Positions 10,259-61,854 of a stretch of 64,000 nucleotides of DNA are shown here, piece after piece. The number at the start of each line of letters is the position of its first letter. Positions within the stretch are counted from its first letter, which is position 1. The DNA is from Providencia rettgeri (lineage in GTDB: Bacteria > Pseudomonadota > Gammaproteobacteria > Enterobacterales > Enterobacteriaceae): positions 1,302,001 through 1,366,000 of the forward strand of contig NZ_CP059348.1 of the NCBI RefSeq assembly GCF_013702265.1, written 5' to 3'. The translations under genes were made by a program, and so were the position numbers. The notes below the pieces were generated by a model. The model did not search any database and had not been told where the DNA came from. It was given only the letters and a program-made list of their open reading frames with translations.

Positions 10259-10373
10259 TTTTTGGATTCGCTTTTTCATCTGCAATGGGCTAAAATCCTT
10301 ACAGAAAATAAGTGAACCCAGTGATGATCGTCTTAACTCTCTAGGCTTAATCAACTCACAGGGTTCCAGATAA

Positions 10374-10486
10374 AACTCCTAGCCTTTGTGTCTAAGTTCT
10401 CCTGAATATGATGCTCTGGCCGTGACCTTGAGTCACCAGGGTGCAAGATAGAAATGTCTGCATCTCCCGTATTTGGAAAGGTGTGA
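10374..10486 (+). ncRNA. Moco riboswitch of the moaA leader
   Basis: The segment from ACTCCTAGCC (10375) through GCTCTGGCCGTGACC and CACCAGGG to CTCCCGTATTTGGAAAGGTG (10463-10482) closely follows the E. coli moaA leader, the type example of the molybdenum-cofactor riboswitch. The GAAAGG near the end also serves as the Shine-Dalgarno of moaA at 10489, so ligand binding can block translation. Exact ends are approximate. Confidence 0.88.
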
Positions 10487-10488
10487 AT

Positions 10489-11469
10489 ATGCAGCAACTT
10501 GTCGATCAATTTGACCGAAAATTTTACTATCTTCGTTTATCTATCACTGATGTTTGCAACTTCCGTTGCACATATTGCCTGCCTGATGGTTACAAACCGA
10601 GTGGCCGCCATGAATTTCTGACACTTGATGAAATCCGTCGAGTGAGCCGCGCTTTTGCTGAGTTAGGGACTGAAAAAGTCCGTATCACTGGCGGCGAGCC
10701 AACGATGCGTAAAGATTTCACCGATATCATCGCCGCTATCAAAGAAAATAATTCCATCAAAAAAATTGCCGTAACAACCAATGGTTATCGTATGGCGCGT
10801 GATGTACAAGCATGGCGAGATGCAGGTTTGAATGCCGTGAACGTGAGTGTGGATAGCCTTGATCCTCGACAATTTGCCGCGATCACAGGGCAAGATAAAT
10901 TTTTCCAAGTCATGAAAGGGATCGATGCGGCATTTGATGCAGGCTTCGAAAAAGTCAAAGTCAACGCGGTCTTGATGAAAAACGTCAATGATATCGCTCT
11001 TAAATCTTTCCTCAATTGGATCAAACACCGTCCAATTCAACTGCGTTTTATTGAACTGATGGAAACAGGGGAAGGCAGCAACCTATTCCAACGTTACCAT
11101 GTGTCTGGTGAAACCGTTCGTGATCGCCTCATCGCAGAAGGCTGGTATATGCAGTCACGTTCTCGTAGCGATGGACCAGCTCAAGTCTTTAGTCACCCTG
11201 ATTACCAAGGGGAAATTGGGCTGATCATGCCGTACGAAAAGGACTTTTGCCAAAGCTGTAACCGTCTCAGGGTCTCTTCTTTAGGCAATCTGCATTTGTG
11301 TTTATTTGGTGAAAATGGCATTCCACTGCGTGATTTACTGGGTGATGAAAACCAGAATGAAGCCCTAAAAGCACGTATCCAAAGTGGGTTAATGTCTAAG
11401 CGAGAAACCCATTTCCTTCACCAAGGCGACAGCGGGATCACCCCGAATCTTTCCGTTATCGGCGGTTAA
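10489..11469 (+). CDS. moaA: GTP 3',8-cyclase MoaA
   Basis: Radical SAM enzyme that makes 3',8-cyclo-7,8-dihydro-GTP, the first step of molybdopterin synthesis. The N-terminal cluster motif CNFRCTYC (Cx3Cx2C), the SAM-binding ITGGEP block, the C-terminal cluster [11 protein letters not shown]...HLC (Cx2Cx13C) and the C-terminal GG are all present. ATG 10489 follows AAAGGTG and gives 326 residues, near the usual 329; an in-frame GTG at 10441 lies inside the riboswitch and is rejected. First gene of moaACDE; expected to be controlled by the riboswitch. Confidence 0.97.
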
Positions 11470-59809: not shown

Positions 59810-59873
59810 GATTCGATATCTATACAGAAATTCTGATATTATCGATAGCCATTTTCGAAATCGCTATCGATAA
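59801..59873. repeat. ATCGATA-type repeats and an 11-bp inverted repeat before the exporter gene
   Basis: TTATCGATAGC (59839-59849) and GCTATCGATAA (59863-59873) form a perfect stem with a 13-nt loop. TATCGATAA (59801) and TTCGATATC (59812) are further related copies. Could be an operator or an RNA hairpin. Confidence 0.6.
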
Positions 59874-59896: not shown

Positions 59897-61090
59897 ATGC
59901 ATAAATTTCTCGCTTTATTATTACTTTTAGTCCTATTAGGGCCTCTTGGGATAGATCTGTATTTACCGACTATTCCAGCTATCGCTAAAGATTTAGGGAG
60001 TAGCGAGTCTATAATCCAATCGACCATCGGATTATTTATTTTAGTCTTAGGGATTGGACAGCTAATTTCTGGACCATTAGTCGATAGATTTGGTCGTAAG
60101 CCTATCGCTATCATTGGGTTAGCTATTTATCTAGTTGGCTCCATTGTGGCCGCATTTTCAACGACGGCAGGGTTATTTATTGCTTCCCGGCTGTTACAAG
60201 GAGTGGCTGTGTGCTGCACCTCTGTAGTGGCATTTAGTTGTGTCCGTGACCGTATGAATGGCACAGAAGCCGCGAGAGCATTTGGTTTTTTAAACGGAAC
60301 ACTTAATATTGTGCCCGCCTTGGCGCCTTTATTAGGGGGATTGCTGGCGGAAGCATGGGGATGGCGAGCGCCATTTTGGTTCTTGGCGATTTACGCTGTG
60401 GCAATTTTCTTGCTGATTCTATTTTTCCTACCAGAAACGCGCCCAGTCAGTTTACTGCAGGTTAAAAAGCTTCAATTTAAGAGCTATTTTCGAATTTTAA
60501 CCAGCGAGCATTTTTTGATTTTTGCATTGGTAAATGCCGGCGCAATGGGCATGGCACTGACGTATGTCTCTCTAGCCCCTAGCGTATTAATGGGGGATGC
60601 TAAGCTATCGCCTCTCGCATTTTCGATTGTCTTTGGTGTTAATGGTTTCTGGATCATGCTGGCGAGTTATATCGCGAATTACTGCATTCGAAAAATGGGG
60701 CGTCCAGCGTGTTTATCAATCGGTAGTGTCATGATGGCACTTGGTTGCATCGGCTTATTATTCGGTTTGATGGTACTTTCACCTGAAATGCAAACCCATT
60801 GGTTAGTGTATATGTTGCCGGTTGCCTGCGCGTGTACAGGGCTTGCCTTTATGATGGGCACGGCGACAAGCTATGCGTTAGAGCCATTTGGCAATGAAGC
60901 TGGGGCGGCATCAGCCCTCGTGGGGTTTGTGCAAATGGCGGGTGGTGCTGTATTAGGGTTATGTGCAATTGCGTTACCGATAGCACCGAAATTGTCCCTT
61001 GCTCTAGTGATGCTAGCGGGATGTATTTTCGGATTAATTGCAAGAAAAACCAGTATAAAACGCGCAGCCATAATAGAGAAAATAGAGTAA
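59897..61090 (+). CDS. Bcr/CflA family drug exporter (MFS)
   Basis: 397 residues with 12 hydrophobic helices. The N-terminus LGPLGIDLYLPTIPAIAKDLG, LVDRFGRKPIAIIG (motif A), RLLQGVAVCC and LGGLLAEAWGWRAPFWFL are typical of the Bcr/CflA group, which includes the chloramphenicol exporters CmlA and FloR. The substrate here is not shown by sequence. A palindrome cluster lies upstream; a CatB-like gene lies downstream, with a possible attenuator between them. Confidence 0.85.
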   Translation: MHKFLALLLLLVLLGPLGIDLYLPTIPAIAKDLGSSESIIQSTIGLFILVLGIGQLISGPLVDRFGRKPIAIIGLAIYLVGSIVAAFSTTAGLFIASRLLQGVAVCCTSVVAFSCVRDRMNGTEAARAFGFLNGTLNIVPALAPLLGGLLAEAWGWRAPFWFLAIYAVAIFLLILFFLPETRPVSLLQVKKLQFKSYFRILTSEHFLIFALVNAGAMGMALTYVSLAPSVLMGDAKLSPLAFSIVFGVNGFWIMLASYIANYCIRKMGRPACLSIGSVMMALGCIGLLFGLMVLSPEMQTHWLVYMLPVACACTGLAFMMGTATSYALEPFGNEAGAASALVGFVQMAGGAVLGLCAIALPIAPKLSLALVMLAGCIFGLIARKTSIKRAAIIEKIE

Positions 61091-61095
61091 TCGTT

Positions 61096-61137
61096 ATGGT
61101 TAATAATCCATTATTAAAGCAGCCGAGGATCGGTTAG
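61096..61137 (+). CDS. Putative 13-residue leader peptide
   Basis: ATG at 61096 to TAG at 61135 encodes MVNNPLLKQPRIG. It begins 5 nt after the exporter stop and ends 1 nt before the first of three overlapping hairpins. GAG lies 9 nt upstream. Too short to judge coding character; support comes from position only. Confidence 0.45.
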   Translation: MVNNPLLKQPRIG

Positions 61138-61138
61138 C

Positions 61139-61220
61139 GGTGATGTAGTGTGAACGCAATTACATCACCATAGAATGCGTTCTATGGTAATTAAATACTG
61201 ATTTAAAGGTTATTTACCAT
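61139..61220 (+). promoter_or_regulatory. Candidate translational attenuator of the CatB-like gene
   Basis: Segment 1 GGTGATGTA (61139-61147) pairs with segment 2 TACATCACC (61161-61169). ACCATAGAA (61167-61175) pairs with TTCTATGGT (61180-61188) around a TGCG loop. ATGGTAA (61184-61190) pairs with TTACCAT (61214-61220), covering the start codon and looping out the AAAGG ribosome-binding site. Neighbouring pairs share bases and so compete. Confidence 0.55.
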
Positions 61221-61854
61221 GAAAAATAAACATTGGTCGAAAACGCAGTTATTACATGAAGTTGTTAAAAATCCCAATATCCATCTTAAAGGACGCCACA
61301 GTTATTATAGTGATTGTTGGGATGGCGGTTTTGAACAGTCTGTCGTGCGTTATTTACAAGGCGATGAACAGAGCCGAGATTGGCAATTAGCTTGGGATAT
61401 CGACCAACTTTATATTGGCAATTATGTGTGTATTGGGGCGGAAGCCGTTATTTTGATGGGGGGAAATCATACCCATCGATTAGATTGGTTCTGTTTGTAC
61501 CCTTTTCTTGAATATATTGAAGAGGCCTATATTGGTAAAGGCGATACCATTATTGGCGATGGCGTTTGGATTGGAATGCGGGCATTTATTATGCCGGGCG
61601 TTCAAATAGGGGAAGGTGCGGTGATTGCGGCAAACAGTGTCGTGGTTAAAGATGTGGCGCCTTACACCATTGTTGGTGGTAACCCTGCAAAGCCAATTAA
61701 TACGCGCTTTTCCCCTGATGTAATCGAGCAATTATTAGCGTTGAAGATCTATGAATGGCATGAAGATAAATTCGAAGCATTGAAAGTGTTTATTTGCAAT
61801 TCGGATTTTCAGGCCTTAAGAGAGGCTAGCGAGCAGTATGACGAAACTCATTAA
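61219..61854 (+). CDS. CatB-like xenobiotic acetyltransferase
   Basis: 211 residues, left-handed beta-helix (hexapeptide) acyltransferase. VVKNPNIHLKGRHSYYS at the start, MGGNHTHRLDW (with the His aligned to the catalytic His of type B chloramphenicol acetyltransferases), IIGDGVWIGMRAFIMPGVQIGEGAVIAANSVV, and VGGNPAKPI are family marks. CatB/Vat enzymes use acetyl-CoA to inactivate chloramphenicol or streptogramins; the true substrate here is not shown. AAAGG lies 9 nt before ATG 61219. Translation may be gated by the leader hairpins. Confidence 0.82.
   Translation: MKNKHWSKTQLLHEVVKNPNIHLKGRHSYYSDCWDGGFEQSVVRYLQGDEQSRDWQLAWDIDQLYIGNYVCIGAEAVILMGGNHTHRLDWFCLYPFLEYIEEAYIGKGDTIIGDGVWIGMRAFIMPGVQIGEGAVIAANSVVVKDVAPYTIVGGNPAKPINTRFSPDVIEQLLALKIYEWHEDKFEALKVFICNSDFQALREASEQYDETH

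Follow-up and report, generated by a model that had tools for sequence, protein, structure and literature searches.

How is a gene for a CatB-related acetyltransferase controlled when a short open reading frame (ORF) and a set of competing RNA pairings lie immediately upstream of it? The gene stands near the end of a 64,000-nucleotide stretch of Providencia rettgeri contig NZ_CP059348.1 (positions 1,302,001 to 1,366,000), which is the window analysed here and whose numbering is used throughout. The best reading, in which we place high confidence on the basis of conserved sequence and modelled folding, is that the region is a translational attenuator of the catB-like gene: a leader peptide gene and a folding RNA probably keep the enzyme off until an antibiotic stalls ribosomes. 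In this model, four RNA segments (1 to 4) follow the leader ORF. Without drug, stem 1:2 would form, its loop would probably be bonded to the head of segment 3, and pairing 3:4 would shut the catB start codon. With a ribosome-binding antibiotic, we infer that the ribosome translating the leader would arrest around the Arg-Ile/Val codons of the motif PLLKQPR(I/V) and cover segment 1. Segment 2, freed, would take segment 3 into hairpin 2:3, segment 4 would be released, and the acetyltransferase would be translated, presumably inactivating the drug. The computations support this reading through a conserved ORF, alternative pairings with compensatory changes, and a modelled gain at the start site in most loci.

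An earlier note on this DNA had proposed the basic anatomy, and it is borne out by the window. The 13-codon ORF (61096-61137) ends one nucleotide before segment 1, which starts at 61139, and three overlapping pairings that compete with one another were all found. Pairing 1:2 joins 61139-61147 to 61161-61169 with 9/9 positions paired; pairing 2:3 joins 61167-61175 to 61180-61188 through 9 pairs and overlaps 1:2 at ACC; pairing 3:4 joins 61184-61190 to 61214-61220 through 7 pairs, covers the A and T of the catB start codon ATG and holds the ribosome-binding site (AAAGG, 61205-61209) in its loop. Compared with dinucleotide shuffles, the natural sequence folds well (61091-61240, z = -3.59, 1/200 shuffles as good; 61129-61230, z = -2.97, 0/200). 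The note had doubted the resting state because hairpin 2:3 is strong, a doubt largely answered by nearest-neighbour energies, which hold for the RNA 3′ of the leader ORF only: -20.9 kcal/mol for the closed state (1:2, a short 2:3 and 3:4) versus -17.9 kcal/mol for the open state (a trimmed 1:2 and the full 2:3). Taken alone, the full hairpin 2:3 reaches -10.2 kcal/mol and 3:4 reaches -5.0 kcal/mol. From segment 1 onward, the balance depends on stem 1:2: when it is present the closed state wins by ~3 kcal/mol, and when it is absent the open state wins by ~5 kcal/mol. In the model, a ribosome stalled at the Ile codon would lie over most of segment 1.

A fourth pairing, absent from the earlier note, links GAACGC in the loop of 1:2 (61152-61157) to GCGTTC (61177-61182) and is referred to as loop:3. 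Its geometry, a stem of 11-12 base pairs, 1-3 nucleotides, a stem of 5-7 base pairs and a linker of ~8 nucleotides, is what we take to be an H-type pseudoknot, and the resting RNA may adopt this form. The pseudoknot would keep segment 3 off segment 2 while the tail of segment 3 is free to close the start codon; by holding the two segments apart it would set the resting state. At the leader, no match to an Rfam family reached its gathering score in the window or in six relatives.

To place the leader in a wider context, upstream regions of catB relatives were collected. A protein-only search supplied the best 80 of 113 loci in named genomes, to which relatives from a search of 24 Providencia genomes were added; removal of duplicates left 98 distinct upstream regions. 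The leader finder used a loose amino-acid pattern anchored on the Pro before the last two motif positions. A short ORF encoding PLLKQPR(I/V) or a close variant was found in 81/98 distinct regions, with the exact motif in 50, and in 67/80 of the protein-found loci; the same finder returned 0/98 on reverse complements and 0, 0, 1, 0 and 0 of 98 on five base shuffles. Hosts include Providencia, Xenorhabdus, Photorhabdus, Vibrio, Aliivibrio, Shewanella and Ferrimonas, among others, and the peptides include MKLIPLLKQPRIH (Vibrio, Shewanella), MKRIPLLNQPRIS (Photorhabdus) and MINPLLKQPRVAKGDVF (other Providencia). Of the 24 Providencia genomes, 23 carried a catB relative of at least 67% identity, and all 23 have the leader in one copy or more. 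The predicted attenuator therefore extends well beyond the window, across many related bacteria.

The motif codons vary mainly at synonymous positions. Synonymous divergence (pS) was 0.835 and nonsynonymous divergence (pN) 0.121, giving a pN/pS of 0.145, although the loose amino-acid pattern by which rows were selected pulls pN down somewhat and itself accounts for the invariant Pro (81/81). The useful control was provided by two offset frames (pN/pS 0.61 and 3.4), and 24 downstream bases gave 0.98; a column shuffle gave 0.168, near the real value and of little information. By these sequence measures the short leader ORF is conserved at the amino-acid level. A Shine-Dalgarno-like match before the leader ATG is modest (at least 4 bases in 44/81, control rate 0.22). 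Position -1 of the motif is Arg in 75/81 leaders and position 0 is Ile (64) or Val (17), and the endings beyond are unconstrained, with 25 different versions. The free endings suggest that arrest would take place at about the Arg-Ile/Val codons.

Conservation of the pairings was assessed in an alignment of 31 rows, comprising 30 of the 57 loci with a long spacer, the class to which the window belongs, plus L087. It is not a random sample: near-duplicates, insertion loci (L008, L011, L098) and eight loci without the hairpin pattern (L066, L067, L069, L097, L100, L104, L105, L106) were omitted, and the counts that follow apply to the aligned rows. Because MAFFT puts stem 1 one base off register in most Vibrio rows, stem 1:2 was counted with a per-row offset, and the shuffles were given the same freedom. 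Stem 1:2 was paired in 259/279 cells (maximum 242 in 1000 shuffles) with 35 double-change cells (shuffled maximum 27), and wholesale changes kept the pairing: GTGATGTATTT/GAATACATCAC, GCGTTGTTTAG/CTAAGCAACGC, ACATTACTC/GAGTAATGT, GCGTAGCTTA/TAAGTTACGC and TTGATGCACT/AGTGCATCGA. Pairing 2:3 was 90.3% paired with 35 double-change cells; 3:4, with 6 of its pairs counted, was paired in 96.2% of 184 cells with 13 double-change cells; and loop:3 was paired in 95.7% of 186 cells with 9 double-change cells. For these three, 0/500 shuffles were as high on either percentage paired or double-change cells, and slid controls were lower (at most 68.5% paired overall, and at most 43.5% for loop:3). Where segment 3 changes from TGGTAA to TGGCAA or TGACA, segment 4 changes in step from TTACCA to TTGTCA or TGTCA. 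Likewise, in Photorhabdus the loops read GAATGC or are GAATGT-like and face GCATTC, and in the plasmid type GGAATGT faces ACATTCC. These alignments indicate that the long-spacer loci, the window included, have mutually exclusive pairings, one of which would close the catB start site. Both features on whose conservation the earlier note had staked its proposal are kept across genera, the ORF through synonymous codon change and the pairings through compensatory change.

The same data bear on two other explanations of the hairpins. One is that the alternative hairpins terminate transcription. Competing hairpins behind a leader peptide share the anatomy of such attenuators; against it, no T run follows the window's hairpins, no Rho-independent terminator-like match was found in the leader (61091-61219), and in most of the 31 long-spacer rows pairing 3:4 extends as far as the start codon. 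We regard transcription attenuation as highly improbable. The other is that the inverted repeats are DNA operators, or that the gene is plainly coupled to the one upstream, with a short ORF that has no sensing role. The long palindrome at ~61167-61188 could bind a dimeric protein, and the leader starts only 5 bases past the stop of an upstream major facilitator superfamily (MFS) efflux gene. Neither proposal is easily squared with an ORF conserved at the amino-acid level, or with mutually exclusive pairings that are conserved with compensatory changes and of which one reaches the start codon, and the leader is kept at loci where the fetched flank showed no such MFS gene. We regard this explanation, too, as highly improbable.

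Whether a stalled ribosome would open the catB start site was modelled as the change in the cost of opening that site. RNA was folded from an anchor immediately 3′ of the Ile/Val codon, with the first 14 bases masked as an assumed footprint and by a folding program that ignores the pseudoknot. Across the 57 long-spacer loci, stalling lowered the opening cost by a median of 1.62 kcal/mol (shuffled 0.05), with 43/57 above the shuffled mean (Wilcoxon p 6e-7); across 24 short-spacer loci the median was 3.07 kcal/mol (shuffled 0.45), with 17/24 above the shuffled mean (p 0.002), and both p-values are optimistic because the rows are related. The window itself gained 1.28 kcal/mol, with 3/30 shuffles as high. 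With the leader RNA left free in the comparison, the short-spacer loci had a median of 2.58 (shuffled 0.79), and 20/24 exceeded the shuffled mean. A test for one helix in the top 5 of 100 shuffles was passed in 46/57 long-spacer and 3/24 short-spacer loci.

Several results weigh against an attenuator of this design, and they are collected here. Thirteen of the 80 catB relatives lack the motif even under the loose pattern, two of them being near-misses (L087, whose motif is broken by an in-frame stop, and L107, in which Trp replaces Arg), and residues 3′ of Ile/Val and the position of the stop vary between leaders. In the model that starts from the anchor, the gain was negative in 18/81 loci (13/57 long, 5/24 short), for example in Xenorhabdus L044 and L045, L073 and L094. 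With the leader RNA left free the window showed no gain (-0.51 kcal/mol, 29/30 shuffles as high), since, as the fold shows, the beginning of the leader is able to pair with the catB start, and the long-spacer loci had a median of 0.38 (shuffled 0.06), with 36/57 above the shuffled mean. No single helix ranked in the top 5 of 100 shuffles in 21/24 short-spacer and 11/57 long-spacer loci. Finally, the measures of covariation least inflated by relatedness, the number of pairs with double changes and the number of pair types, do not clearly exceed the shuffles: for 2:3, 3:4 and loop:3 the former was at least as high in 28, 232 and 291 of 500 shuffles, further pair types in 500, 267 and 478 of 500, and stem 1:2 has 14 pair types (shuffled mean 12.7, maximum 16). 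The compensatory changes are therefore few events, each shared by a clade. The strength of the alignment evidence is that four pairings are jointly kept in differing sequences, rather than a count of independent events.

In the short-spacer loci (24/81) the peptide is kept and hairpins 1 to 4 are not kept as aligned. Nine loci from another vibrio group (L146, L149, L150, L152-L157) carry the motif 187-197 bases upstream of catB, and their likely leader start is GTG or TTG. From the short-spacer loci and these vibrio loci together, it follows that the peptide is constant and the RNA is remodelled. On an enzyme tree whose bootstrap had not settled, the spacer classes were clustered (0/500 shuffles as low), yet 14 and 9 changes were needed; the classes are therefore not single clades.

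The leader was also sought apart from catB, with a DNA pattern that misses variants such as LLNQPR, so that the matches are a lower bound. Among 36 genomes with a catB relative the pattern occurred once each in 23, always at catB. Among 121 Vibrionaceae, 22 genomes matched, 21 at catB and one with two chance sites; one genome belongs to both matching sets. Three of 369 Gammaproteobacteria matched, namely the window's own genome, in which the leader sequence is single-copy, and two chance sites. No other leader-controlled gene was found in these three sets, and within the sampled genomes the leader is associated with catB relatives only.

What does the enzyme acetylate, and which drug would be sensed? 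The 211-residue protein scores 176.5 bits against the CatB profile NF000490 (curated cut-off 350) and 128.5 bits against the Vat streptogramin A acetyltransferase profile NF000311 (cut-off 300), reaching neither cut-off. Its Hexapep repeats and a conserved His place it in the CatB / xenobiotic acetyltransferase superfamily: His86, which we take to be catalytic, aligns with the His of GNQGH/GNQGHR in three solved chains (6pu9, 8j40, 3eev). A second CatB gene in the same genome (L027, G000:C1:72173-72751) is 48% identical and has no such leader; the motif was not found at any of three 48% CatB copies (L025, L027, L028), whose upstream sequences look like integron cassette boundaries.

Chloramphenicol stalls prefer Ala, and less so Ser or Thr, at the E-site position, according to the accessible part of PMC13410324. 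Motif positions -3 to 0 contain no Ala, Ser or Thr in 81/81 leaders; 63/81 have none up to and including Ile/Val, and 42, including the window's, have none anywhere. If arrest occurs at or before Ile/Val, the motif would depart from the published rule. Were arrest to occur later, leaders in which one of these three residues follows Ile/Val would agree with the rule, and those with His, Gln or Gly would not. A Norwegian Vibrio study assigns chloramphenicol acetylation to a catB-related gene, and in its available part the only amphenicol tested was florfenicol. Given the residues of the motif, the CatB and Vat scores below cut-off and this florfenicol-only study, a phenicol is a possible inducer that the sequences do not favour. 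The best general guess is a drug of the peptidyl-transferase centre or the tunnel.

The missing chloramphenicol-favoured residues also suit a different explanation, in which the peptide arrests the ribosome either unaided or together with a metabolite, as TnaC does with tryptophan, and the switch senses a non-antibiotic cue, for instance a slowing of translation or the supply of release factor. In its favour, the motif is a long one of 8 residues, and a single residue separates Ile/Val from the stop codon in 57/81 leaders. In several Providencia species and Xenorhabdus, however, the stop is displaced downstream by a further 6 to 13 codons, and in the sampled genomes the gene under control is related to antibiotic acetyltransferases. 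Moreover, a Bcr/CflA-type MFS efflux gene precedes the leader in 13/23 Providencia genomes with a catB relative (fetched flank), and an ABC-F gene adjoins the locus in the plasmid examined. We consider this alternative unlikely, though less so than the two explanations weighed above, and return to an attenuator that responds to antibiotics.

How does this locus compare with known attenuators? An ermC-type leader (ErmCL) has a short ORF, four segments that pair as 1:2, 2:3 and 3:4, a start codon closed by 3:4 and a nascent-peptide motif before the first hairpin. All of these are shared by the locus described here, which differs in its peptide (PLLKQPRI/V), gene class, Gram-negative hosts and extra loop-to-segment-3 pairing. 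The erm-type logic put forward in the earlier note is supported by the conserved ORF and competing pairings, and the fourth pairing is foreign to it. The cat-86/catA and cmlA leaders have Thr or Ala before the arrest codon (MVKTDK, MSTSKNADK), fitting the chloramphenicol context. As there, a leader peptide stands ahead of a chloramphenicol-related gene, but here Ala, Ser and Thr are absent at -3 to 0, and the gene is of the CatB (hexapeptide) kind rather than CatA or efflux. The general attenuation scheme for ermC-type leaders and the 9-residue cmlA leader with alternative stem-loops are described in PMC8876359, an integron review whose available part covers the cmlA leader and mentions ermC and cat genes, not catB. 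No catB leader was found in the literature searched, and a search joining pseudoknots with leader-peptide antibiotic attenuation found nothing on one in the portions of text available. Five motif strings matched none of 5.39 million papers, a set that mostly does not cover subscription journals, so a printed description is possible.

The leader is also carried on plasmids. Ninety-one plasmid records have a catB relative, 62 of them from Escherichia, and 83 have the plasmid-type leader at at least 99%; 49 E. coli records (46/5426 genomes) have a match to the gene and none to the window's leader. Three plasmid regions were opened. In pNT1W22-tetX4 (L159) the order is a MarR gene, the leader, the acetyltransferase, an ABC-F gene, ISVsa3 and tet(X4), with floR nearby. 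The ABC-F protein scores 339.8 bits against a ribosomal-protection-like family, under the cut-off of 380, and no leader was seen before its gene. A 4.7-kb E. coli plasmid record has a MarR gene and the acetyltransferase as its only annotated genes, and a Vibrio fortis plasmid has a Vibrio-type leader with MQLIPLLKQPRIH. The tet(X4) context yheS-cat-zitR appears in PMC7190383 and PMC8627205, which, in the parts available, only name the genes and whose main text has no match for "attenuat", "leader" or "leader peptide". By gene order and position in the one plasmid examined, its 'cat' seems to correspond to the 65% relative that has the same attenuator type (MINNPLLKKPRIARG); unlike in the window, a MarR-family gene replaces the MFS gene upstream. 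One Providencia genome carries three copies (L024, L026, L029) of the plasmid-type acetyltransferase with an ABC-F gene. One of their three leaders is out of frame, and in the fetched flanks these copies are the only other catB relatives with an ABC-F neighbour.

Features of the locus in the window, with the basis of each assignment
Feature	Position	Strand	Basis
Bcr/CflA-family MFS efflux gene	59897..61090	+	TIGR00710, 257.6 bits (cut-off 200.9)
Leader ORF, 13 codons, MVNNPLLKQPRIG	61096..61137	+	ATG 61096, stop TAG 61135-61137
Conserved codons PLLKQPRI, presumed arrest motif	61108..61131	+	pN/pS 0.145 over 68 distinct 24-mers
Segment 1, 5′ arm of stem 1:2	61139..61147	+	Starts one base after the leader stop
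GAACGC, loop of 1:2, 5′ arm of fourth (pseudoknot-type) pairing	61152..61157	+	Pairing conservation
Segment 2: TACATCACC pairs with 1, ACCATAGAA pairs with 3	61161..61175	+	Pairings 1:2 and 2:3
Segment 3: GCGTTC (with loop), TTCTATGGT (with 2), ATGGTAA (with 4)	61177..61190	+	Pairing conservation
Shine-Dalgarno-like AAAGG of catB, inside loop of 3:4	61205..61209	+	Direct reading
Segment 4, TTACCAT, overlapping the catB start codon	61214..61220	+	Pairing 3:4
CatB-related O-acetyltransferase, 211 amino acids	61219..61854	+	Profile scores, Hexapep repeats, aligned His86

The efflux gene and the leader ORF are probably on one transcript; no plus-strand promoter-like match was found in 60762-61219, where the scan yields fewer matches than its own shuffles. 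Just 5′ of the efflux gene, an inverted repeat noticed by eye (TTATCGATAGC/GCTATCGATAA, 59840-59873) is a possible operator or terminator. Elsewhere in the window, a molybdenum cofactor riboswitch (RF01055) lies at 10364-10499 on the + strand, with 100.9 bits against a gathering score of 36.

Taken together, the results point to an arrest-peptide family that seems not to have been described before and has an RNA architecture of its own, present in several Gammaproteobacteria families and on resistance plasmids. A bolder proposal, which we offer tentatively and rate at a little below an even chance, is that PLLKQPR(I/V) defines a novel kind of drug-sensing arrest peptide, triggered by a non-phenicol ribosome inhibitor, perhaps a natural product acting at the peptidyl-transferase centre or exit tunnel. 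Under this proposal its attenuator would be latched by a pseudoknot, would be ancient in Gammaproteobacteria and would since have reached multidrug-resistance plasmids. If the attenuator operates as modelled, the 'cat' gene of tet(X4) plasmids would be inducible, and tests run without induction could overlook its phenotype. The inducer would, moreover, point to the natural substrate of the large CatB-related family, for which the literature searched yielded no measured substrate.
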